Below, piece after piece: positions 12,204-23,020 of a DNA stretch of 64,000 bases. This stretch comes from Paraburkholderia sp. IMGN_8. Lineage in GTDB: Bacteria > Pseudomonadota > Gammaproteobacteria > Burkholderiales > Burkholderiaceae. The stretch's first letter is position 1. The number at the start of each line of letters is the position of its first letter. Location: NCBI RefSeq assembly GCF_038050405.1, contig NZ_CP150901.1, forward strand, positions 1,240,001 through 1,304,000. The letters are read 5' to 3'. Below the pieces are notes generated by a model. It was not told the DNA's origin and searched no databases. It saw only the letters and a list, made by a program, of their open reading frames with translations. A program made the position numbers and the translations under genes.

Positions 12204-12506
12204 CTACATGTCGTGCCCGACCGTGCGCAGAAAATCGCCGGCTGACGTCCGCGTATTGATCGCATTGATGATATCGGTGAGGAACCACGGCAGGATCAGC
12301 TGCGTGTCGGGATCGCTCACCCCGACGCTAATGATTGGCGCATTCGCGGGCGGCGCGGTGTATTTCTGGCCGGTCACGGCGGCTGGCGTGGGCACAAGCG
12401 TATCGGGGTGCGCCGTATGCGCGAGATGACCGCTGGCATCCGGCCACGCCGGCGAACACGCGGCAGTGACCAGGATAAGGGGCATGGCAAAACGAAGGGC
12501 GGTCAT
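12204..12506 (-). CDS. Small lipoprotein, last gene of envelope operon
   Basis: A 100-residue predicted lipoprotein of unknown function. The signal MTALRFAMPLILVTAAC ends in a lipobox with Cys17. The mature part is Pro/Ala/Thr-rich and then contains ISVGVSDPDTQLILPWFLTD and an amphipathic end. Its ATG overlaps the stop of the glycosyltransferase gene by four bases (ATGA on the minus strand), so it is translationally coupled to it. I do not recognise a family. The coupling to glycosyltransferase and acyltransferase genes suggests an envelope role. Confidence 0.7.
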   Translation of the reverse strand: MTALRFAMPLILVTAACSPAWPDASGHLAHTAHPDTLVPTPAAVTGQKYTAPPANAPIISVGVSDPDTQLILPWFLTDIINAINTRTSAGDFLRTVGHDM

Positions 12507-13741
12507 AACGTGATCTCCAGAGAAGGGTCAGGATTTGATTGCCCCGGACGTTCACCGACACTGGCCGTCCCACGGCGCGCGTCGGCAAAGGACTGGGCGA
12601 CGATTGGAATGCGGCGTCGCCGGTCGGGTGCGTCGGGTGCAATACCCAGCAACTCTGTCATTGCATCTATCACCCTATTTGCGTCCAGCGTCAACAGGCA
12701 ATCGCTCCAACTGTGAATGTGGGCTTCGCAGCCCTCCAGCTTGCAGGGCACACACGCGCCGGTTCCCTGAAGCAGATAGACGTTGCCTCGCCGCCCCGAA
12801 CCGGAGGTCATCCAGGGGCTGCTGCCGGTCCAGCCCTTCGGCCAGGGTCCCCAGCGAACCGGATTCGATGGGCCGAACAGGGCGAGGGTCGGGGTGCCGG
12901 TCGCAGCCGCGATGTGCGAGACCGAGGTATCGGGGCCCACGAAGAGCCGCGCGCGCCGAATCACTTCGGCGGTTGCAGCGAGGCTTAGCTTTCCCACCAG
13001 ATTGACGGTGTCGCTTCCCGCCTGCTCACCAATATCGCGCGCATACGCCACTTCAGCTGCCGCCGGGCCGCCTGTCAGCACAACGGCATAGCCGCGTGCG
13101 TGCAGGAACGCCAGCACGGCGATCCAACCTTCGGCATGCCACATCTTGTAGGTATACCGCGGATACATGTGCACCACCGCGTAGGGCTTGCCGTTGGTGG
13201 ACGCGAGCAGCAGATCCAGTTGTTCGAGCTGCGCCGGCTGATTCAGTACCGCGGGCGGGACGACTTCAAAGCAGGGCGTGATGCCAAGCAAGGCCATCAG
13301 CGACACACCGCTTTGGACAGTGTGCACGCTGTGACCACGCTCGATCACAAAGCGGCTCAGCATCAACCTTTTGAGCCAGCTTTTGCGAGCTGGCGCGACG
13401 ATGCCGATTCGCTTGCGTCCTGCCATCCAGCAAAGAAAACTGGCGAGGCTGGACGTTCGCAGTGAGCATCCGAGATCGTATTTGCGCCAGATTTTGCGGA
13501 CATCTGCAACACGCTCAGTCGGCTTCGCATGAGGCGTTATACAGACGATACGTCTGATGTCGGGATTGTTTTCCAGCACCTCGCCGGTGCCTTCGAACAC
13601 CAGCATATCGATTTGCGCATCGGGCCAACGCGCTTTCAGGGAGCGCACCGCAGGGGTGCTGAGCAACACGTCGCCGATACGGCCGGTACAGATCACGAGA
13701 ATCGAGCGGGGCGGGGCGGTGTCGGGGAACAATGCGGCCAT
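12503..13741 (-). CDS. Glycosyltransferase family 9 (heptosyltransferase-like)
   Basis: A 412-residue GT-B enzyme of the WaaC/WaaF/RfaQ type, which in known members transfers ADP-heptose onto lipid A-core. Signatures: ILVICTGRIGDVLLSTPAVR at the N-terminus (the family I-x-R-x-G-x-x-G-D-x-x-x-T-P strand), PYAVVHMYPRYTYKMWHAEGW in the middle, VNLVGKLSLAATAEVI, and FVGPDTSVSHIAAATGTPTLALFG, the nucleotide-sugar binding region with the G-x-D-T/S-x-x-x-H-x-A-A motif. The ATG at 13741 is chosen because the family begins there; the frame extends to 13891 with non-homologous residues. It lies 58 nt after the acyltransferase gene and overlaps the lipoprotein gene. Donor and acceptor are not predictable; it is not beside a standard LPS-core cluster. 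Confidence 0.9.
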   Translation of the reverse strand: MAALFPDTAPPRSILVICTGRIGDVLLSTPAVRSLKARWPDAQIDMLVFEGTGEVLENNPDIRRIVCITPHAKPTERVADVRKIWRKYDLGCSLRTSSLASFLCWMAGRKRIGIVAPARKSWLKRLMLSRFVIERGHSVHTVQSGVSLMALLGITPCFEVVPPAVLNQPAQLEQLDLLLASTNGKPYAVVHMYPRYTYKMWHAEGWIAVLAFLHARGYAVVLTGGPAAAEVAYARDIGEQAGSDTVNLVGKLSLAATAEVIRRARLFVGPDTSVSHIAAATGTPTLALFGPSNPVRWGPWPKGWTGSSPWMTSGSGRRGNVYLLQGTGACVPCKLEGCEAHIHSWSDCLLTLDANRVIDAMTELLGIAPDAPDRRRRIPIVAQSFADARRGTASVGERPGQSNPDPSLEITL

Positions 13742-13799
13742 GTAGCGCTCTCTGGGTGGATTCACACGACAGTACCGACCCGATAGCCGTCGCACATTT

Positions 13800-14675
13800 T
13801 CAGTAGACCTCGGGCATGCCTGCCGGGCGGTGTTTGAAGCGCCTGTGGACCCAGTAGTACTGGTCGGGAAGGCGCAGGATTTGCCCTTCAAGAAACGCGT
13901 TCATCGTGCGTGCGTCGAGCGTTTCGCTGTCCGCGGGAAAGTTTTCGAGCGGATCGAAGATGGTCAGTTTGTAGCCGCGAAATGCGGGCAATACCTCGGT
14001 TACAAAGGGCACGACGCGCGCACCGCCTAACTTCGCGAGACGTGACACGGAAGTGAGCGTGCAGGCCGGCACACCGAAGAGCGGCGCGAACACCGAACCC
14101 GTTGTTCCGTGGTCCATGTCCGCCGCCAGCATCACGGGAACGCCTGAGCGCAGCAGCCTGACAACATGTTTCGCACTCGCGCTGCGTTCGATCATGTCTG
14201 CGCCGAACCGTCCGCGCTGACGCCGTGCGAGCGCGCAGACACGCGTGTTCGACATGCGCGTGTAGAGCGCGGCGACCGGCAGACGCGAGGAATACAGCAT
14301 GCAACCTACCTCGATTCCGACGAAGTGAAAGCCCATGAATATTGTAGGCGGCGCGTGCGGATCGTGCAGATCGATGCGACTGTCCATCTCGACCAGCCGC
14401 TCGATCGTGCGCAAACTGCCGAACCACTGAAAGCCCCGCTCCAGGTAGCTGCGCACGACGTGCTGGAAATGCGCGAGCGCGAGGTCTTCGCGCTCGCGTT
14501 CGGTCTTCAGTGGAAAGCACAGGCGCAGGTTGACGAGCACCACGTGCTTACGGTGGCTCGGCAGCGTGTACAGCGCGGCGCCAAGCGCGTTGCCGGCTCT
14601 CGCAACCAGCGCGTACGGCAGAACCGACAGTAGCCGCAGCAAACCGAGCAGCAGCCAATAACCGAGACTTTTCAT
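13800..14675 (-). CDS. LpxL/HtrB-like lysophospholipid / lipid A acyltransferase
   Basis: A 291-residue inner-membrane acyltransferase. An N-terminal membrane helix (GYWLLLGLLRLLSVLPYALV) is followed by NLRLCFP, a hallmark of the LpxL family, and the catalytic H-X4-E motif HFVGIE (His117, Glu122). Later DMDHGTTGSVFAPLFGVPA matches the family D-x-x-x-x-x-x-x-x-x-x-F-G-x-x-A strand. Known members add a secondary acyl chain to Kdo2-lipid A or related lipids. The ATG at 14675 has GGAC about 7 nt upstream; starts at 14687 or 14702 are possible and would touch or overlap the upstream gene. It is gene two of a minus-strand four-gene operon. Confidence 0.87.
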   Translation of the reverse strand: MKSLGYWLLLGLLRLLSVLPYALVARAGNALGAALYTLPSHRKHVVLVNLRLCFPLKTEREREDLALAHFQHVVRSYLERGFQWFGSLRTIERLVEMDSRIDLHDPHAPPTIFMGFHFVGIEVGCMLYSSRLPVAALYTRMSNTRVCALARRQRGRFGADMIERSASAKHVVRLLRSGVPVMLAADMDHGTTGSVFAPLFGVPACTLTSVSRLAKLGGARVVPFVTEVLPAFRGYKLTIFDPLENFPADSETLDARTMNAFLEGQILRLPDQYYWVHRRFKHRPAGMPEVY

Positions 14676-14689
14676 GCTGACGTCCATTG

Positions 14690-15031
14690 TCAATTGATAC
14701 ATTGATGGCCATGCAGTTCAACGTGCATCTGGACCAGCCACGCAAAGGGGCAGTCATCGTCAATCCATGCTTCGAGACCGTGCTTTTCGATCAGTTGAAC
14801 CTTATGCGCTTGCCTCGCTGCATCGAACGCTCGCCGTGCGCCCCAGCGCAGCACCAGCATGATCAGGGCTGCGAGCAGAAAAATGCTGCCCTGGTAAGGC
14901 AATGTAGGCATGCTGTCGTCGAACAGGCTGATCAGCGACGCGAGACTGATGCAGGGGGCAACTGCGATAGCTATCGAAACCGAACAGAGCACGAGGTTGG
15001 CGCGCAGCGCGGTCGCAGTACTGGCTTTCAT
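14690..15031 (-). CDS. Small two-helix membrane protein, first gene of envelope operon
   Basis: A 113-residue protein of unknown family. Two membrane helices (about residues 11-35, LVLCSVSIAIAVAPCISLASL, and about 48-62, IFLLAALIMLVLRWG) are followed by a basic amphipathic segment and an acidic cytoplasmic tail (EKHGLEAWIDDDCPFAW). The ATG at 15031 has GGGAG with a 7-nt spacer; a GTG six bases upstream is too close to the ribosome site. Its stop is 14 nt before the acyltransferase start. The GTAAG direct repeat at 15084-15099 lies 52 nt upstream of its start, so it heads an operon of small membrane protein, acyltransferase, glycosyltransferase and lipoprotein. Confidence 0.65.
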   Translation of the reverse strand: MKASTATALRANLVLCSVSIAIAVAPCISLASLISLFDDSMPTLPYQGSIFLLAALIMLVLRWGARRAFDAARQAHKVQLIEKHGLEAWIDDDCPFAWLVQMHVELHGHQCIN

Positions 15032-15083
15032 GGACACGCTCCCAAAGTCAGATGAACCAGGTCTTCATGCTGGACGCGCATGG

Positions 15084-15099
15084 CTTACTCGACACTTAC
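15084..15099 (-). promoter_or_regulatory. GTAAG direct-repeat box (site A)
   Basis: On the minus strand this reads GTAAGTGTCGAGTAAG, two GTAAG half-sites 11 bp apart. It points toward the small membrane protein gene that starts 52 nt downstream. Three related boxes with the same spacing precede other transcription units between 15.9 and 22.2 kb. The pattern is that of an OmpR/PhoB-family response-regulator site; the regulator is not in the window. Confidence 0.6.
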
Positions 15100-15137
15100 C
15101 GGTGAGCTGCGCAGACCGTCATGCGTCGGCCGTGCAG

Positions 15138-15863
15138 CTATTGAAGCGAGGGATCCGCGTAGTCCGGCAACTTGTCGGCGTCGCCGGATTTCGTCGAGAG
15201 CATGCGGCGCCTCTGCAGGTAGAGGTCGCGAGTGAACGAATAGGGATCGATCGCCGCCTGCGAGAGCAGATTCGACGCGTTCAGCAGATCGGCGCGGGCG
15301 CTGACAAAGCGGGTGCCGGTCACAGATGCCTGGACAGCAACCGGTGCTGCCGCGAACGGGTTGAGGAAGCTGTCGACGGCGACGTTACTCACGTCCCGCA
15401 CGCTGCTCGGCCCGAACAACGGCAACACCAGATACGGCCCGATCGGTACGCCGTAGTGAGCAAGCGTCAGCCCGAAATCCTGATGATGCTTGGGCAGCCC
15501 CGCGGGCGTCGCCCAGTCGATCAGACCCCCGATCCCCAGAGTGGAGTTGAACGCAAAGCGCACCACATCCTCGCTCGCGTCCGTCGCTTTCAGCTGCAGC
15601 AGGTCATTGGCAAAGTTGCCGATATCGCCAAGATTGGAGAAGAAGTTGCGTACCGCGGTTTGCACCGGTGACGGCATCACCTTTTGATAGGCCTTCGCGG
15701 TTGGTTTGGCCACATAGGTGTCGACTTTGTCGTTGAACGAGTAAATGGTCCGGTTCGTCGGTTCGAGCGGGTCGCCGGCGGTGCGCCCGGGCCCCGTCGC
15801 ACATCCCGGTGAAAGAAGCACCGTGGCGGCGAGCGCCAAAGTATTCAGATCGCGCCTTTTCAT
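15138..15863 (-). CDS. MlaA (VacJ)-family outer-membrane lipoprotein
   Basis: A 241-residue lipoprotein of the MlaA family, which in E. coli removes mislocalised phospholipid from the outer leaflet of the outer membrane and hands it to MlaC. The signal peptide ends in LSPGC (Cys21). Family motifs follow: DPLEPTNRTIYSFNDKVD, the conserved start of the domain, then VRNFFSNLGDIGNFANDLLQ, RFAFNSTLGIGGLIDWAT, DFGLTLAHYGVPIGPYLVLPLFGPSSVRD in sequence. Length fits the family (about 230-300). The other mla genes are not adjacent, so this may be a second, regulated copy. It is transcribed away from the RND operon and has GTAAG boxes about 97 nt upstream of its start. Confidence 0.93.
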   Translation of the reverse strand: MKRRDLNTLALAATVLLSPGCATGPGRTAGDPLEPTNRTIYSFNDKVDTYVAKPTAKAYQKVMPSPVQTAVRNFFSNLGDIGNFANDLLQLKATDASEDVVRFAFNSTLGIGGLIDWATPAGLPKHHQDFGLTLAHYGVPIGPYLVLPLFGPSSVRDVSNVAVDSFLNPFAAAPVAVQASVTGTRFVSARADLLNASNLLSQAAIDPYSFTRDLYLQRRRMLSTKSGDADKLPDYADPSLQ

Positions 15864-15960
15864 CGCGGGACTCCCGGTACAGGAATGACAAAAGGGGTAC
15901 TAACCATGCGGCGCAGTGGCCGTGGCAAAGGACAGTCGATTCGATGGTGCGACCGGAACA

Positions 15961-15998
15961 CTTACCGGCCACTTACCAATTACCTTGCGATCCCTTAC
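15961..15998 (-). promoter_or_regulatory. GTAAG direct-repeat array (site B)
   Basis: Reading the minus strand toward the MlaA gene, GTAAGTGGCCGGTAAG covers 15976-15961, with half-sites 11 bp apart. A third GTAAG (15998-15994) lies exactly 22 bp further upstream, i.e. two helical turns in phase, with a degenerate copy between. The box end is 97 nt from the MlaA start. Same motif and orientation rule as sites A, C and D. Confidence 0.6.
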
Positions 15999-16050
15999 CG
16001 CTAACACGGCGTGAATCGCTCTGATCGGAGCAGGCGGCGCGATCCGGACG

Positions 16051-16066
16051 GTAAGTGTCAGGTAAG
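16051..16066 (+). promoter_or_regulatory. GTAAG direct-repeat box (site C)
   Basis: GTAAGTGTCAGGTAAG on the plus strand, two half-sites 11 bp apart, in the 407-bp gap between the divergent MlaA and RND genes (15864-16270). It points toward the RND operon, whose first start codon is 204 nt downstream. Apart from sites B and C I see no ORF in this gap. Confidence 0.6.
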
Positions 16067-16270
16067 TCGCCTGGCTGCACGATCGCGGCACGTACTGCAG
16101 CGACGCGGCTCAAGGGGTGCACGATCCGGCCCGCCGAGCTCGAATCGCACTACCGCAACCCCGTTGAGACTTTTCAATGACTGACCTGCTCGATCTCGAA
16201 AGGCCGGCGACTGCATGCACACCCGCTGCCGGCCATATCGCCAAGCGGCGCTTCACGCCCAGGCGCACGT

Positions 16271-17788
16271 GTGCCTTCTAACCGCCAGCGAAGCGCTGCC
16301 AGACGGGGGATGGCCGTGGGGCTCATCTGCAGCGTACTCGATGCATGTTCGGTGCAGCCCCCTTATGTGCCGCCCGCGCTCGAGGTTCGTCCGGACTGGG
16401 CGAACCTGCAGGCTCGCGCGCCGGTTACCCTGCCTCCTGAAGAACAATGGTGGACAGCGCTGGCTGACCCGGTACTCGATGGCTTGATCGAAGCAGCCTT
16501 TGAGAGCAGCCCGTCGCTGGCCGTTGCCGCCGCGCATCTCGACGAGGCACGTGCGACGCTGGGCATCCAGACCGCTCAAAGCCGGCCACAGGTTTCCGTC
16601 AGCGGGAACGCGCTGCGCGCTCGCGTTCAAAGCGGGGGCGGCGGCATTGGCAGCGGTGGCAACACGATCGTGGGGTCGGAAGTCACCGGCGGGCCGACTT
16701 TAGCCTGGGAAATCGATGTGTTCGGCCGCTTGCGGCAGGCGCAAGCAGCTGCCAGCAGCCGGCTTACCGCCCGCACGGCGGATGCCGCCGCAGCCAGGCT
16801 TCTGCTGGCGGCACAGGTGGCGGGCACCACGACATCGCTACGTGCATGCCGGGCCGTGCTGAACGTCAGACGCTTCGATATCGAGTCACAGGAGCGCGAC
16901 CTCGTGCTCACGCGCCAGCGAGTCGCGTTGGGATTTGCCGCACCGGTCGACGAAAGCCGCGCGCTGAGTTCACTGGCTGCCGCTCAGACGAACCTCGTCG
17001 CCCAGGACGAAACCTGTGTGCAGGACAGGGATGCGCTCGTCGAACTCACAGGACTCAGCGCCGCCGAGCTGGACACGCGCCTCGGCGAGGCTGCTTCTGT
17101 GCCGCCGGGGCACAGCGACGATTCGTTTGGGTTTCCTAAAGTTCCGCAAGCGACGCTAAGCCTGCCGGCAACCGTGTTGGCCCGCCATCCGGCCGTCATC
17201 GCCGCCGAGCGCGAAGCGGCGGCGACCTACGCCGAAATCGGCGTTGCTCGCGCCAACCGGCTGCCGGTTTTCAATCTGACGGCGGCGCTCACCGGCAACT
17301 GGATCAGCGCGTCCGGGTCCACGCTGTCCTATCTGGCGTGGTCATTGATGCCGGCGGTCAGCGCGCCGATCTTCGATGGCGGACGGGGCGCAGCGTCGGT
17401 CGACGCGGCGACCGCGCGCTACCTTGCCGCGCTCGGCAACTTGCGCGAGACCGTTCGCACGACGACACAAGACATTGAAAACGCGCTTTCGGCGCAGGCC
17501 CATGCAAGCCAGCGGCTCGCTGCGGCGGCGCGCGCCCAGGATGCCGCGCAGGCCACGCTGGCGGCGACCGAGTCGCAATGGCGGGCAGGCGCGGTGAGCC
17601 TGTTCCAGCTCGAAGACACGCGCCGGCAACGCGTAGCGGCGGACGAAACCGCGGTCGATGCGGCGCGCGCCAGCGTGCAGGCGTGGGTGGACGTGATCCG
17701 CGCGTCGGGCAATGCCGCCACATTTGCGACCCTCGGCACCTCTGGCACCTTCGACACCTTTAGTGCCGCGCACACTCAACCGGATTGA
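16271..17788 (+). CDS. NodT/OprM-family outer-membrane efflux lipoprotein
   Basis: Outer-membrane channel of an RND tripartite pump, 505 residues. The GTG at 16271 is chosen because it gives a proper lipoprotein signal: arginine-rich MPSNRQRSAARR, a short hydrophobic core and lipobox LDAC (Cys26); starting at the ATG 16310 would remove the positive residues. The mature part begins CSVQPPYVPP and contains QWWTALADPVLDGLIEAAF and GPTLAWEIDVFGRLRQAQAA, both standard for the family, in two homologous halves of TolC-type helical hairpins. It is the first gene of the three-gene operon, 6 nt before the adaptor gene. Site C lies upstream. Confidence 0.93.
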   Translation: MPSNRQRSAARRGMAVGLICSVLDACSVQPPYVPPALEVRPDWANLQARAPVTLPPEEQWWTALADPVLDGLIEAAFESSPSLAVAAAHLDEARATLGIQTAQSRPQVSVSGNALRARVQSGGGGIGSGGNTIVGSEVTGGPTLAWEIDVFGRLRQAQAAASSRLTARTADAAAARLLLAAQVAGTTTSLRACRAVLNVRRFDIESQERDLVLTRQRVALGFAAPVDESRALSSLAAAQTNLVAQDETCVQDRDALVELTGLSAAELDTRLGEAASVPPGHSDDSFGFPKVPQATLSLPATVLARHPAVIAAEREAAATYAEIGVARANRLPVFNLTAALTGNWISASGSTLSYLAWSLMPAVSAPIFDGGRGAASVDAATARYLAALGNLRETVRTTTQDIENALSAQAHASQRLAAAARAQDAAQATLAATESQWRAGAVSLFQLEDTRRQRVAADETAVDAARASVQAWVDVIRASGNAATFATLGTSGTFDTFSAAHTQPD

Positions 17789-17794
17789 TACGAC

Positions 17795-18976
17795 ATGTCC
17801 CACTCATTCACTACTCGAATCGCCGGGCTCAGCCGTGATGCCACGACCCGGCGGCGCGCTGCCGCTGCCGCCTTCGTTGCTATCGTCCTGCTCGCGGCGC
17901 TGGGCACCGTCATCGCGTTTCGCGCCGGTTCGTCCGACGACGCCCATGCGACCGTCGCCAGTGCACTGACGGTCGCGGTCGTGACGCCGCATCACGAACG
18001 CTGGACCCGATCGATCGACGCGTCCGGCGCAATCGCGCCATGGCAGGAAGCATCGATCCGTTCACTGGTGGCCGGCGCGCGTCTGGCGGAAGTCCGTGTC
18101 GATGTCGGCGACACGGTGAAGCGTGGTCAGGTATTGGCCCGTTACGACACGGCGATGCTGCAGGCCAACGTCGCGCAGATGGCCGCTGCGCTCGCGCAGG
18201 CCGAGGCGAATGCGCTTCAGGCCGGCACCAACGAATCCCGCGCGCTGCAGATGAAGGACAGCGGCGGCATCAGCATGCAGGATCTGCTGCAATACCGGAC
18301 CGCGGCCGCGGTGACGAAAGCACAGGTCGGCGTCGCGCGAGCCCAGTTGCAGGCGCGCAGGCTCGACCTGCAGAACGCCAGCGTCGTCGCGCCCGACGAC
18401 GGCACCATCAGCGCACGCGCCGCGACCCTCGGCTCGGTGACGCCGGTCGGCGAGGAATTGTTCCGGCTGATCCGGCAGGACCGGCTGCAGTGGCGAGCGG
18501 AAGTGACGGCCGCCGAGGTGTCGGCGATCGTGCCCGGCCAGCCCGTCTCGCTGACGCTGCCGGATGGCAGCGCGGCGCACGGCGTCGTGAGCCGGATCGC
18601 GCCGGCGCTGGACCCGCAGTCGCGGGTCGTCATCGTCTACGCCGATGTGGAACCGGGCTCGCACGCGCGCGCCGGCATGTACACGGGCGGCCGCGTCGCA
18701 TTGGGTGCGAGCGATGCGCTGGTGGTGCCTGCCTCCGCGCTCGCCATGCATGACGGACGCAGCAACGTCGCCGTCGTCGTGGCTCGTGATGGCGTACAGC
18801 GCGTCGCCTTGCGGGAAGTTCAGACCGGCAGGCGCGAGGGCAGCGTCGTCGAGATCGTGCGTGGTCTCGCCGGCACGGATCGCATTGTCCGGGAAGGGGC
18901 GGGCCTGCTGAACGAAGGGGACATCGTAACGCTCGCGCCCGCTCCCGTATCGACCATAAGCGAGGCGCTGCAATGA
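17795..18976 (+). CDS. RND efflux periplasmic adaptor (MFP)
   Basis: A 393-residue membrane-fusion protein connecting the RND pump with the outer-membrane channel. One N-terminal membrane helix (about 26-46, AAAFVAIVLLAALGTVIAF) anchors it. The first lipoyl half includes WQEASIRSLVAGARLAEVRVDVGDTVKRGQ across residues 79-108, then a short Ala-rich helical hairpin, and the second lipoyl half with APDDGTISAR, followed by beta-barrel and membrane-proximal domains ending in VREGAGLLNEGD. The N-terminus is an uncleaved anchor rather than a lipobox. The stop overlaps the pump start by four bases (ATGA). Confidence 0.93.
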   Translation: MSHSFTTRIAGLSRDATTRRRAAAAAFVAIVLLAALGTVIAFRAGSSDDAHATVASALTVAVVTPHHERWTRSIDASGAIAPWQEASIRSLVAGARLAEVRVDVGDTVKRGQVLARYDTAMLQANVAQMAAALAQAEANALQAGTNESRALQMKDSGGISMQDLLQYRTAAAVTKAQVGVARAQLQARRLDLQNASVVAPDDGTISARAATLGSVTPVGEELFRLIRQDRLQWRAEVTAAEVSAIVPGQPVSLTLPDGSAAHGVVSRIAPALDPQSRVVIVYADVEPGSHARAGMYTGGRVALGASDALVVPASALAMHDGRSNVAVVVARDGVQRVALREVQTGRREGSVVEIVRGLAGTDRIVREGAGLLNEGDIVTLAPAPVSTISEALQ

Positions 18977-21900
18977 ACTTCGCATCATGGTCGATTCATC
19001 ACCGGATTCCGGTCGTGGTGCTGTTCATCTTTCTGTCACTGGCGGGATTGTGGGGTTTTCATCGCTTACCCATTCAGAACATGCCGGACCTCGATCTGCC
19101 GACGCTCAACGTCACGCTGACGCTACCCGGCGCGGCGCCGCTTCAGCTCGAAGCGGATGTTGCCCGCAAGGCCGAGGATGCGCTCGCCACGCTGCAGGGC
19201 CTCAAGCATCTGAATACGCAGATCGTCGACGGGCAGGTGCATATTCAGATCAAGCTGATCGTCGGGCGCAATCTCTCCGATGCGCTGAACGAGGCGAAGG
19301 ACGCACTCGACGGCATCCGCTCCGAGCTGCCCGCCGATCTCGATCCGCCTGTCGTGACGGCCGTGAGAAGCGACGCGAATCCGATCATGACGTTCGCCAT
19401 TTCGTCCTCCCGATTCGACGAAGAGGGCTTGTCGTGGTTCGCCGACAACGCCGTCAGCAAGGCGGTGCTGGCGGTTGACGGGGTTTCGCAATACGAGCGG
19501 GTCGGCGGCGTCACGCGCGCGGTGCAGGTGCGAGTCGATCCGGTCAGCCTCGCATCGACCGGTGTGACGGCGGTCGATGTCTCGCAAGCGCTTCGTTCGA
19601 TGCAGATGGATGCATCGGGCGGACGCGGACGCCTCGGGCGCGGCGAACAGTCGATGCGCGTGCTCGGCACCGTGCCGCAGGCGAGCGGAATCGCACGCTT
19701 GCCGATCGTCCTCGCCGACGGGCGCTCGATCAGGCTGGACCAGGTCGCACGTGTCGAAGACAGCTTTGCGGAACCGGTTCAGACCGCGCTGCTCGGCGAG
19801 CGGCAAGTGGTCGGCTTCAGGATCTACCGCGCCAAAGGTGCCGACGAGACCCGCATCGCGACCGATGTCGAAGCGGCGCTCGAGCATCTTCATGCCGCGG
19901 ACCCGACGTTCTCGTTCCAGCTGGTGTCCAGCACCGTCGACTATACGAAGGAGCAGTACAAAGGGTCGATGGACATGCTCTACGAAGGCGCGCTGCTCGC
20001 TGTGCTGGTGGTGTGGTGGTTTCTCCGGGACGGCCGCGCGACTCTGGTGGCTGCTGCCGCATTGCCACTGTCGATTCTGCCGGCCTTTGCCGCCATGCAG
20101 TGGCTCGGCTATTCGTTGAATACGCTCACGCTGCTGGCGCTGGCGGTCGTGACCGGCGTGCTGGTCGACGATGCGATTGTGGAAATCGAGAATATCGAGC
20201 GGCATGTGCAGATGGGTAAGCCGATCCGCGAGGCCGCAACCGACGCCGTCACCGAGATTGCGCTGCCGGTGATCGCGACGACCCTGACGCTGGTCGCGAT
20301 CTTCCTGCCTACGGCGCAAATGAGCGGTGTGCCGGGGCTGTTTTTCAAGCAGTTCGGCTGGACGGCGGTGGTCGCGGTCCTGATGTCGCTGCTGGTCGCG
20401 CGGCTGCTGACGCCGATGATGGCTGTCGCCATGCTGAAGAACGCGGCGCCGCGAGAACAGGCGCCGTCACGGTTGATGCAGCGTTATCTGCTGGCGGTGC
20501 GCTGGTGCCTCGCGCACCGCAAGACGACGCTGGGCCTGACCGCGGCGTTTCTCGCCGGCTCAGCCGCGCTGATTCCGCTGATCCCGAGCGGCTTCGTACC
20601 GGCCTCCGACCGCGGGTTCGTCACGATCAATGTCGAGTTGCCGCCGGGCAGCGCACTGGATTCGACGCTCGCTGTCGAGCGTGATGCGCGGCAGGCGCTG
20701 GGCGGCATTCCAGGCATCCAACGCATTTTCAGCGTGGCCGGCGGTAACGCGACGACCAGCTTCGATTCGGCGCAGACCGCCGGTGTTCGCTTTGGCTCGA
20801 TGACGCTCATGCTGGCACCGCGCGGTGTCCGGGAGTCGCAGGCGACTATTGAAGCGATGGCTCAGCGGCGCCTCGCCAGAGTGCCGGGTGCGCGTTTTTC
20901 GCTCGGCAACGGCGGCCTCGGCGAGAAGCTCGAACTTGTCCTGACCAGCGACAACACCCCCGCGCTGACCGAGAGCGCGGCCCGGGTCGCACGCGAGATG
21001 CGCGGCATCCGTGGGCTCAGCAACGTGGCCTCGTCGGCGAGCCTGGAGCGGCCCGAGATCGAGATCCGGCCCGACATGGCGCTCGCGGCCGAACGCGGCA
21101 TCAGCACCGCGGCGATCGGCGAGACCGTGCGCATCGCCACCAGCGGCGACTTCGATGCACAACTGGCGCGACTCAATCTCGACGACCGCCAGATCTTCCT
21201 GCGCGTGCAGCTCGGCGATCGCGAGCTGGAACATGTCGGCGCGGTGTCCGGTTTGCGCCTGAAGGGGCGGGGTGGCCTGGTCCCGTTGGGATCCGTGGCC
21301 AGTGTCTCGGTGGGAAGCGGGCCTGCGGCGATCGCACGATACGATCGCAAACGCTTTGTTCTGCTATCGGCCGACCTCGGCACGACGGCGCTCGGCGAGG
21401 TACTGACGTCGGTCAAGGCACTGCCGTCGGTCCGCGCGCTGCCCGCTGATGTCCAGCTGCTCGACAGCGGCGACGCCGACACCATGGCCGAACTGACGTC
21501 CGGCTTTCTCTTTGCGATGGTGACGGGCATCCTCTGCGTCTACCTGTTGCTCACCGTTTTGTTCAAGGACTTTCTGCAGCCGGTCACGATCCTGTCGGCG
21601 TTGCCGCTGTCGCTAGGCGGATCGTTCGTGATGCTGCTCTTGACCGGCAGCGAGCTCGACGTTCCCTCGATGGTCGGACTCGTAATGCTGCTGGGCGTCG
21701 TTACGAAGAACTCCATCCTGCTGGTCGAATATACGATCCGCAATCTGCAGCTGCAGCAGATGCCGCTTGTCGACGCGCTCGTCGATGCGTGCTCGAAGCG
21801 GGCGAGAGCCATTGTGATGACGACCGTCGCGATGACCGCGGGCATGCTGCCGATTGCGCTCGGCTTCGGCTCGGACGCGAGTTTCAGGCAGCCGATGGCC

Positions 21901-22059
21901 TTCGCCGTGATCGGCGGCCTGCTGACCTCGACGGCGCTGAGCTTGCTGGTGGTGCCCGTGGTGTTCTCTTACGTCGCCGGCTTCAGGCACCGCGCCGCGC
22001 GCTTGTCCGGGCGTTTATCGGACCGCTTGTCAGATCGCATCAAGCCGCGCTGCGGATAA
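18973..22059 (+). CDS. RND-family efflux pump, AcrB/HAE1-like
   Basis: A 1028-residue proton-driven inner-membrane exporter with the classic 12-helix, two-large-loop layout. Helix 1 starts WSIHHRIPVVVLFIFLSLAG; the helix-4 proton relay is present in GVLVDDAIVEIENIERHV (paired Asp), and the second-half motif is LVMLLGVVTKNSILLVEYTI with the relay Lys. Length fits the family (1000-1050). It is the last of three coupled genes, in the order channel-adaptor-pump rather than the common adaptor-pump-channel. The neighbouring envelope genes and shared upstream boxes hint at a lipid or envelope stress role, but drug export is equally possible. Confidence 0.95.
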   Translation: MNFASWSIHHRIPVVVLFIFLSLAGLWGFHRLPIQNMPDLDLPTLNVTLTLPGAAPLQLEADVARKAEDALATLQGLKHLNTQIVDGQVHIQIKLIVGRNLSDALNEAKDALDGIRSELPADLDPPVVTAVRSDANPIMTFAISSSRFDEEGLSWFADNAVSKAVLAVDGVSQYERVGGVTRAVQVRVDPVSLASTGVTAVDVSQALRSMQMDASGGRGRLGRGEQSMRVLGTVPQASGIARLPIVLADGRSIRLDQVARVEDSFAEPVQTALLGERQVVGFRIYRAKGADETRIATDVEAALEHLHAADPTFSFQLVSSTVDYTKEQYKGSMDMLYEGALLAVLVVWWFLRDGRATLVAAAALPLSILPAFAAMQWLGYSLNTLTLLALAVVTGVLVDDAIVEIENIERHVQMGKPIREAATDAVTEIALPVIATTLTLVAIFLPTAQMSGVPGLFFKQFGWTAVVAVLMSLLVARLLTPMMAVAMLKNAAPREQAPSRLMQRYLLAVRWCLAHRKTTLGLTAAFLAGSAALIPLIPSGFVPASDRGFVTINVELPPGSALDSTLAVERDARQALGGIPGIQRIFSVAGGNATTSFDSAQTAGVRFGSMTLMLAPRGVRESQATIEAMAQRRLARVPGARFSLGNGGLGEKLELVLTSDNTPALTESAARVAREMRGIRGLSNVASSASLERPEIEIRPDMALAAERGISTAAIGETVRIATSGDFDAQLARLNLDDRQIFLRVQLGDRELEHVGAVSGLRLKGRGGLVPLGSVASVSVGSGPAAIARYDRKRFVLLSADLGTTALGEVLTSVKALPSVRALPADVQLLDSGDADTMAELTSGFLFAMVTGILCVYLLLTVLFKDFLQPVTILSALPLSLGGSFVMLLLTGSELDVPSMVGLVMLLGVVTKNSILLVEYTIRNLQLQQMPLVDALVDACSKRARAIVMTTVAMTAGMLPIALGFGSDASFRQPMAFAVIGGLLTSTALSLLVVPVVFSYVAGFRHRAARLSGRLSDRLSDRIKPRCG

Positions 22060-22133
22060 GGCCCTTTGGCCGCTTTGGCCATTTTCCTGGCCGTGCCGTC
22101 AAAAATCATTTCTGGTCGTCCAGGATTGCCCGA

Positions 22134-22149
22134 GTAAGTAGCGAGTAAG
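22134..22149 (+). promoter_or_regulatory. GTAAG direct-repeat box (site D)
   Basis: GTAAGTAGCGAGTAAG on the plus strand, half-sites 11 bp apart, ending 52 nt before the GTG start of the MipA/OmpV gene, exactly the distance seen for site A. A weak -10-like TTAAAG lies at 22160-22165, 10 nt beyond the box, where an activator of the PhoP/OmpR type would place it. Confidence 0.6.
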
Positions 22150-22201
22150 TCAGCCGCTCTTAAAGTCGATTCCGTCTCATCCCTCTACTTTAGGAACGAC
22201 T

Positions 22202-23020
22202 GTGAAAAAAACCTTTCGTCGTGAGTACCATGTGTTGCTAGCCGTGGCGTCCGTCTTCCTGTATTCGGGCAGCGCGTGGGCGGACGATGTCGGCGAAGAT
22301 CACGCCGAAGCAGACTCCTCCGGCTTCACCGTGCTGAGCAATGCCACGAATGTGACGCACTGGGGCTTGGGCGTGGGAGGCGGTGTCGAGGCGTCGCCGT
22401 ACAAAAACGGCAACACCAAATTCTCGCCGATCCCGCTGATTTCCTTCGAAAATAAATGGGTCCACGCGTTCGGCACGACTGTCGACCTGAAGATCGGGAA
22501 GTGGGACAACGTGAGCTTCGCGCTGCGCGGCGATTTCGCCATCGGCGACGGCTACAAAAATTCCGACGCACCGATCCTGAATGGCATGGAGAACCGCGGC
22601 GGCGCGTTCTGGTACGGCCCGGCGCTCGCCTGGAAAACGGCATTCGGCACCCTGGAGGGCGACTATCTGCTGGGGGGGAATAAGGGCGAGCGCGCCAAAA
22701 TCGACTTCAGCAAATCCTTCGATTACGGGCATTTCTCATTCGAGCCACATGCCGGCGTCGAATGGCTGAGCAGCAAGTACGTCAACTACTACTACGGCGT
22801 TCGGTCCTCGGAAGTGCGGGCGGGGCGCCCCGAATACACTGGAAAGGCCGCCTACAACATGTCGGTCGGCACGCGTGTCGACTACAAGTTCACGCGCCAT
22901 CAGATGGTGATTCTGGATGTCGGTGTGTCGCACTCCAGTAGCGGCATCACCAACAGCCCAATCGTAGGCCGGCGTTATATTCCTGAAGCCAGGCTCGGCT
23001 ACCTTTATCAATTCAATTGA
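22202..23020 (+). CDS. MipA/OmpV-family outer-membrane protein
   Basis: A 272-residue predicted outer-membrane beta-barrel. It starts with GTG at 22202 (AGGAA 8 nt upstream; no suitable ATG). The signal peptide (KKTFRREYHVLLAVASVFLY, cut near SAWA|DD) is followed by WGLGVGGGVEASPYKNGNTK and PLISFENKWVHAFGTTVDLK, the N-terminal strands of MipA/OmpV, and it ends in an aromatic-rich strand LGYLYQFN as expected for barrel assembly. In E. coli MipA is a scaffold for murein synthases, and the family also includes osmoregulated and polymyxin-responsive porin-like proteins. Site D immediately upstream places it in the same putative regulon as the MlaA, acyltransferase and RND genes. Confidence 0.88.
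   Translation: MKKTFRREYHVLLAVASVFLYSGSAWADDVGEDHAEADSSGFTVLSNATNVTHWGLGVGGGVEASPYKNGNTKFSPIPLISFENKWVHAFGTTVDLKIGKWDNVSFALRGDFAIGDGYKNSDAPILNGMENRGGAFWYGPALAWKTAFGTLEGDYLLGGNKGERAKIDFSKSFDYGHFSFEPHAGVEWLSSKYVNYYYGVRSSEVRAGRPEYTGKAAYNMSVGTRVDYKFTRHQMVILDVGVSHSSSGITNSPIVGRRYIPEARLGYLYQFN

Follow-up and report, generated by a model that had tools for sequence, protein, structure and literature searches.

GTAAG direct repeats ahead of envelope genes in Paraburkholderia are predicted activator sites of a mipA-linked OmpR/PhoB-family regulator

In the genome of Paraburkholderia sp. IMGN_8, four transcription units with envelope functions are preceded by copies of a direct repeat, GTAAG-N6-GTAAG, and the question raised by this locus is whether all four are controlled by one regulator. 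The window is the whole stretch of DNA that was analysed, 64,000 nucleotides long. The boxes, each of which faces a gene, and their putative -10 elements are located as follows.

15084..15099, minus: box A, GTAAGTGTCGAGTAAG, exact match, upstream of a small gene, an LpxL-type acyltransferase gene and a heptosyltransferase gene
15072-15067, minus: -10-like CAGCAT of box A
15961..15976, minus: box B, GTAAGTGGCCGGTAAG, exact match, upstream of mlaA
15949-15944, minus: -10-like CACCAT of box B
15994..15998, minus: extra GTAAG half-site, exactly 22 bp upstream of box B
16051..16066, plus: box C, GTAAGTGTCAGGTAAG, exact match, upstream of the RND efflux operon
16078-16083, plus: -10-like CACGAT of box C
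22134..22149, plus: box D, GTAAGTAGCGAGTAAG, exact match, upstream of mipA
22161-22166, plus: -10 TAAAGT of box D

The first-pass annotation, in which the boxes were picked out by eye, had their coordinates and strands right, and its statement that the window contains no further such pair also holds: these four are all the matches with up to one mismatch, and ten more appear at two mismatches only. In 100 shuffled windows, the mean at up to one mismatch is 0.49 and the maximum 3, so that none reaches four. The 52-nt spacing to the start codon is true for box A (ATG 15031, minus) and box D (GTG 22202), and the third half-site above box B lies where it had been placed. Box B ends 97 nt ahead of mlaA, and box C ends 204 nt (GTG 16271) or 243 nt (ATG 16310) ahead of the efflux operon, so that proximity to the gene is not a property of all the boxes. 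The genes behind the boxes, with functions assigned by protein family only, are the following.

12503..13747, minus: glycosyltransferase family 9, heptosyltransferase III type (PF01075; TIGR02201 175.3 bits, cutoff 170.2)
13800..14684, minus: LpxL-type lipid A acyltransferase (PF03279; NF005399 438.6 bits, cutoff 343)
14690..15037, minus: small protein, 115 aa from GTG (ATG at 15031), without a Pfam match
15138..15863, minus: MlaA lipoprotein (PF04333, E 1.4e-75; NCBIfam equivalog 131.9 bits, under the cutoff of 375)
16271..17788, plus: NodT-type outer-membrane efflux factor, start at GTG 16271 or ATG 16310 (TIGR01845 279.9 bits, cutoff 210)
17795..18976, plus: RND periplasmic adaptor (TIGR01730 185.5 bits, cutoff 94.9)
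18973..22059, plus: RND permease (PF00873, E 2e-206)
22202..23020, plus: MipA/OmpV outer-membrane protein (PF06629, E 4.8e-37)

Homologues of the small protein (e.g. L102 5507-5896) often sit behind a box of their own, and several of them are divergent from mipA.

The boxes could be alike by chance or through repeats and have no part in regulation, and the density of the bare motif in the genome of the window (G000; 9,114,050 bases, two contigs) is consistent with this: GTAAG-N6-GTAAG has 13 exact matches, compared with 11 for the reversed control. Being at background density, the bare motif proves nothing alone, and it was dropped as evidence. A list of two-mismatch matches is at background (99 vs 220 in the control), and so is the extended motif defined below when two mismatches are allowed (49 vs 106). 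The motif GTAAGTNNCNRGTAAG has seven matches in G000, namely the four window boxes, the promoter of a response regulator gene, a second hpnIJKL copy and acs, compared with two for the reversed control. The extended motif, GTAAGT-N5-GTAAG-N12-A-N3-T, which adds a promoter -10 position to the box, has exactly five matches in the 9.1 Mb, boxes A to D and the promoter of the regulator gene, against none for the reversed control. The genome-wide density check suggested with the boxes thus gives a divided answer, with the bare motif at background and the extended motif well separated from its control. Because the extended pattern was composed after these sites had been viewed, and the weak -10 elements of boxes A to C (CAGCAT, CACCAT, CACGAT) were known by then, its weight rests on other genomes. 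Two G000 features outside the window are the following.

G000 C2:677092-677784 (L014 5093-5788): OmpR/PhoB-family response regulator gene, on the same contig as the window, unlinked to the boxes
G000 C1:3207315 (L016 7316-7331): acs box

The regulator combines a receiver domain (PF00072, E 5.2e-22) with a Trans_reg_C domain (PF00486, E 7e-11), and a histidine kinase gene with HAMP, HisKA and HATPase_c domains lies directly downstream (L014 5808-7169), which is the constitution of an OmpR/PhoB-family response regulator, with both domains and an adjoining kinase gene. Its best NCBIfam model is PmrA (NF007928, 162.3 bits, cutoff 330) and its best PDB relative is BasR; judged by the NCBIfam cutoff, the regulator is PmrA-like but not PmrA. 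The best kinase model, CztS/SilS/CopS, is below its cutoff as well. The RstA model is absent from the best 25 of the 75 model matches of the regulator, and a search of named genomes with the regulator yielded at least 80 loci at 29-39% identity, with no orthologue among the matches listed. A GTAAG box precedes the regulator gene by 138 nt in G000, so that the gene is probably autoregulated. A perfect 36-base palindrome, CCTGGGGTCTGTTCACATATGTGAACAGACCCCAGG (L014 4994-5029), is found between this box and the regulator start, at the place where relatives carry mipA.

The usual gene order in the relatives is box-mipA-regulator-kinase. An exact box is found at all 20 mipA loci of the regulator-bearing genomes of the genus, box D being the window's own instance. 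At the family level, the regulator is present in 28 of the 299 genomes and in 7 of the 25 genera, and each of 23 further regulator loci from these seven genera is preceded by an exact box, with a mipA match lying between the two (23/23; partial in G164, residues 1-116 only). Taking genus (20) and family (23) together, all 43 mipA loci in genomes with the regulator have the box. In L102, L122 and L130, box, mipA and regulator follow one another with no gene in between, so that mipB is absent from this place. G000 has no mipA match between box and regulator, and G029 has a C-terminal mipA remnant at this place (L118 4411-4638); in both genomes, an intact mipA with its own box is located elsewhere. 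The remnant fits the loss of mipA at the regulator locus in the lineage of G000 and G029. At the two mipA loci from genomes that lack the regulator, one in G022 and one in G025, no box was found within 1.5 kb (0/2). There, mipA (L316, L314) adjoins, divergently, another response regulator, which in G025 resembles OmpR without reaching the cutoff of the OmpR model (251 vs 331 bits), and an exchange of regulators is possible.

These comparisons also tell against chance. The box at 43 of 43 loci stands within otherwise variable sequence and the extended motif separates five to none from its control in G000, so that, even with the bare motif at background and the box before the second hpnI not kept in two close orthologues (see below), similarity without a regulatory function is hardly credible as an explanation.

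The layout of the promoters was derived from 45 promoters (20 mipA promoters of the genus, 23 of the family and those of the regulator gene in G000 and in G029), 42 of them distinct. The ten half-site bases are invariant because the promoters were chosen by exact half-sites; still, no mipA locus among the 43 was without an exact site. Beyond the half-sites, T at position 6 (42/42) and C at position 17 or 18 are invariant. Of the spacer bases singled out in the first-pass annotation, both of which are present in all four window boxes, T at spacer position 1 is found in all 42 distinct promoters, where spacer position 6 is always a purine, and C at spacer position 4 occurs in only 23 of the 42 and was dropped as a general consensus. 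At a fixed distance past the box, TA-N-A-G-T is 95-100% conserved, and the 40 nt upstream of the box average 0.2 bits. The box overlaps the place expected for the -35 hexamer, and there is no separate conserved -35 element in the 42 promoters. Fixed spacing to a conserved -10 element without a separate -35 is the activator-dependent layout of the PhoB type, and the arrangement in these promoters is the one expected when an activator binds across the -35 region. The same overlap would suit a mipA-linked regulator that binds the boxes and represses by covering the -35 region; given the fixed spacing and the lack of a separate -35 in all 42 promoters, repression seems very improbable.

The recognition helix of the regulator goes together with the box over larger distances. 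All 38 readable helices among 41 orthologues read VTPNALEVT(V/L/I)(H/Y)RLRKKL, and the 14 paralogues in the helix set read IGSNTVEVYIHALRKKL. At the order level, the regulator has a match in 11 of the 399 genomes, G000 included. Six of the ten other regulators have the helix VTPNA(L/M)DVALHR(L/I)R(R/K)KL, and an exact box is located upstream of all six, in G697 only once more flanking sequence was included, with room for another gene there; in G461 and G475, there is no mipA match between box and regulator. The remaining four homologues have an altered helix, (V/I)TPKAL...HRLRGKL, and no box was found at any of them. In G567, one of the four, a contig end truncates the sequence, which leaves a testable contrast of 6/6 vs 0/3 (Fisher 0.012); three of the four, G567 included, belong to one genus, and so do two of the three testable ones. 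The extended motif has a single match, at the regulator operon, in four of the six box-bearing genomes of other families, with one-base deviations accounting for the two others (G475 and G659), and no match in the four altered-helix genomes. Given this single match per genome, the wider regulon may be peculiar to the clade of the window. In G466, from another family (L392), an RND operon is divergent from the mipA-regulator-kinase genes and a one-mismatch box faces it. PmrA residues H193 and N196 correspond to T and R in the regulator. N196 of PmrA aligns with the guanine-contacting R201 of PhoB according to the available text of PMC3973317, and an R at this position would fit a half-site with G where that of PmrA has T (GTAAG vs TTAAG).

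Within the genus, co-occurrence of boxes and regulator was assessed in 58 genomes, with orthologues defined by E below 1e-80. The regulator has orthologues in 16 of these; beyond them and one partial copy in G055, the matches listed have E 4e-47 or weaker and at most 41% identity. GTAAGTNNCNRGTAAG occurs 82 times in the 58 genomes, compared with 28 for the reversed control, and these matches divide into 44 acs sites and 38 others; 43 of the acs sites adjoin acs, and the remaining one, at a contig end in G009, was assigned from its flank. Among the 38 non-acs sites, 34 belong to 14 of the 16 regulator-bearing genomes and four to 4 of the 42 other genomes. The extended motif has 60 matches against one for the reversed control. 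Of these, 46 fall in the regulator-bearing genomes (16/16), where two are of the acs type. The other 14 come from genomes that lack the regulator (14/42); 12 of the 14 are of the acs type (nine seen adjoining acs and three judged by flank), and the remaining two resemble a site inside a 212-aa ORF of G000. Non-acs extended matches are thus present in 16/16 genomes with the regulator vs 2/42 without (Fisher 1.9e-12, with genomes counted as independent and relatedness ignored). One non-acs extended match in G019 precedes a LysR-type gene.

The acs promoter raises a different issue. In the form GCGTAAGTGGCCGGTAAGTTGCNACGCTTA, its box is found in 44 of the 58 genomes, split into 15 of the sites in regulator-bearing genomes and 29 in the others, so that 29 of the 42 genomes without the regulator have it, which implies a further reader for boxes of this kind. 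Because the box persists in these genomes, acs was not accepted as a regulon member; cross-talk between the reader of the acs box and the regulator in G000 is possible. On a broader reading, a different genus-wide regulator would recognize all GTAAG boxes, acs included, and the mipA-linked system would be only one of its targets. The acs site, an identical 16-mer in many genomes and present in those 29, speaks for such a reader. However, the acs boxes have distinct flanks of their own, GC before and TTGC after, and 33 of the 44 do not fit the extended pattern, whereas the non-acs boxes follow the mipA-linked regulator; moreover, the box is missing where mipA lies beside another regulator and where homologues have an altered helix. 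On balance, a single genus-wide reader of all the boxes is an improbable explanation, if less so than repression, and the mipA-linked regulator remains the preferred reader of the non-acs boxes.

Conservation of the window boxes in the relatives, the second check suggested with them, came out positive but uneven: boxes B and D have strong support, box A moderate support and box C little. An identical 16-mer to box B precedes mlaA in G019, G047, G051 and G017, and the third half-site above it lies at 22 bp in G000 and G019 and at 33 bp in G047, G051 and G017, i.e. it moves by exactly 11 bp, one helical turn, between lineages. Box A has a counterpart with one mismatch, TTAAGTGTCNGGTAAG, at the same place in G047, G051 and G017, which is absent from G019 at up to one mismatch. 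The counterpart of box C, GTAAGTGGCGGGTAAG, was found before a related efflux operon in G019 only. Among 30 LpxL paralogue loci, taken from 104 matches, a box lies within 1.3 kb upstream in 4/4 at 95-100% identity and in 0/26 at 63-73% identity. A different two-component system, with a regulator match of 36-37% identity, is the neighbour of the mlaA cluster in two of these genomes, G051 and G017, and of the mipA operon in a third, G047 (L101, L140, L158).

G000 also contains a second hpnI-hpnJ-hpnK-hpnL cluster (L015 867-5482; C2:1960866-1965481), with a box that begins 303 nt ahead of the second hpnI copy (C2:1965769). The orthologous copies in G029 (91% identity) and G019 (87%) lack this box within 600 nt upstream, even with one mismatch allowed, and so do the 19 further hpnI loci that were scanned. 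As the box is unconserved and one base off the extended pattern, the hopanoid genes were not counted in the regulon.

Taken together, the proposal that one two-component system of the OmpR/PhoB type governs the four units is supported by comparative genomics, with the regulator located outside the window, and the four boxes are most probably activator sites of one mipA-linked regulator of this family, a prediction made from genome comparison. Two regulator subunits would most likely occupy the two GTAAG half-sites, spaced by 11 bp, in head-to-tail orientation, lying over the -35 region (roughly -39 to -24, with the -10 hexamer taken as -12 to -7), and would activate transcription from the -10 element 11 nt past the box. 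The simplest regulon in G000 would comprise five promoters: those of the regulator itself, mipA, mlaA, the acyltransferase/heptosyltransferase operon and the RND efflux operon. Direct binding and activation by the regulator are what the conserved layout suggests. The signal would be envelope damage or cationic peptides, by likeness to ParRS-MipA, PmrAB and BesRS.

No paper on a GTAAG-N6-GTAAG regulator or on this mipA-linked system was among the best matches in the open-access PMC literature; several known systems share parts of the arrangement. In ParRS-MipBA of Pseudomonas aeruginosa, as described in the available text, mipA and an RND pump are under one two-component system and MipA is a proposed polymyxin co-sensor (PMC10936184). 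The likeness extends to mipA beside two-component genes (23/23 family loci, one partial; in G000, mipA is separate) and to the predicted box-based control of mipA and an RND operon, whereas no mipB, part of that system, lies between box, mipA and regulator in the three loci named above, and acyltransferase and mlaA targets are not mentioned for ParRS in the portion of the report available (PMC10936184). Tandem half-sites with an 11-bp period are shared with PmrA/BasR-PmrB, but the half-site read on the other strand, CTTAC at all 43 mipA loci, differs from the CTTAAT/TTTAAG type (CTTAA) of PmrA in the available text (PMC3973317), and the regulator scores less than half the PmrA cutoff and has R where PhoB has its guanine-contacting R201. 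The envelope-disturbance regulon of BesRS in Burkholderia thailandensis includes, in the text available, a MipA/OmpV protein, tripartite efflux and hopanoid genes, the first two of which have a counterpart in the regulon predicted here from boxes; however, BesR is reported there as closest to RstA, with a proposed TGCG/TGCA box as opposed to GTAAG-N6-GTAAG (PMC9426598). DzrR, from an envelope stress response, is likewise, in the accessible part of its description, a regulator of the OmpR-family type with a direct-repeat box and an RND operon that in Burkholderia may be far from the regulator gene, but its box consists of two CTCCAT repeats (PMC10052836). AgrR of Cupriavidus metallidurans, again from a partial text, is an autoregulated OmpR-family member and a proposed type II activator, the core site of which is an inverted repeat, ATKACA-N4-TGTMAT, unlike the direct repeats here (PMC7380067).

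A motif noticed by eye has thus led to a testable regulon, with one regulator, five predicted promoters and a strongly conserved operator, for which the genomes with another regulator beside mipA and the homologues with an altered recognition helix provide natural controls. If confirmed, this would be a MipA-linked envelope-stress system of this order, with a single switch for lipid A modification, MlaA and efflux. More tentatively, with the odds somewhat against it, a MipA-coupled two-component system with its own GTAAG operator may extend across several families of the order, its regulon having grown in this clade from self-control to an inducible programme that links acylation of lipid A and heptosylation of the core with phospholipid transport by MlaA, RND efflux and MipA as an outer-membrane co-sensor. 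If this is true, the group would possess an inducible switch for lipid A/LOS remodelling, and mipA genes would have swapped regulators, PmrA-like here and OmpR-like in G025, with their sensing role kept.
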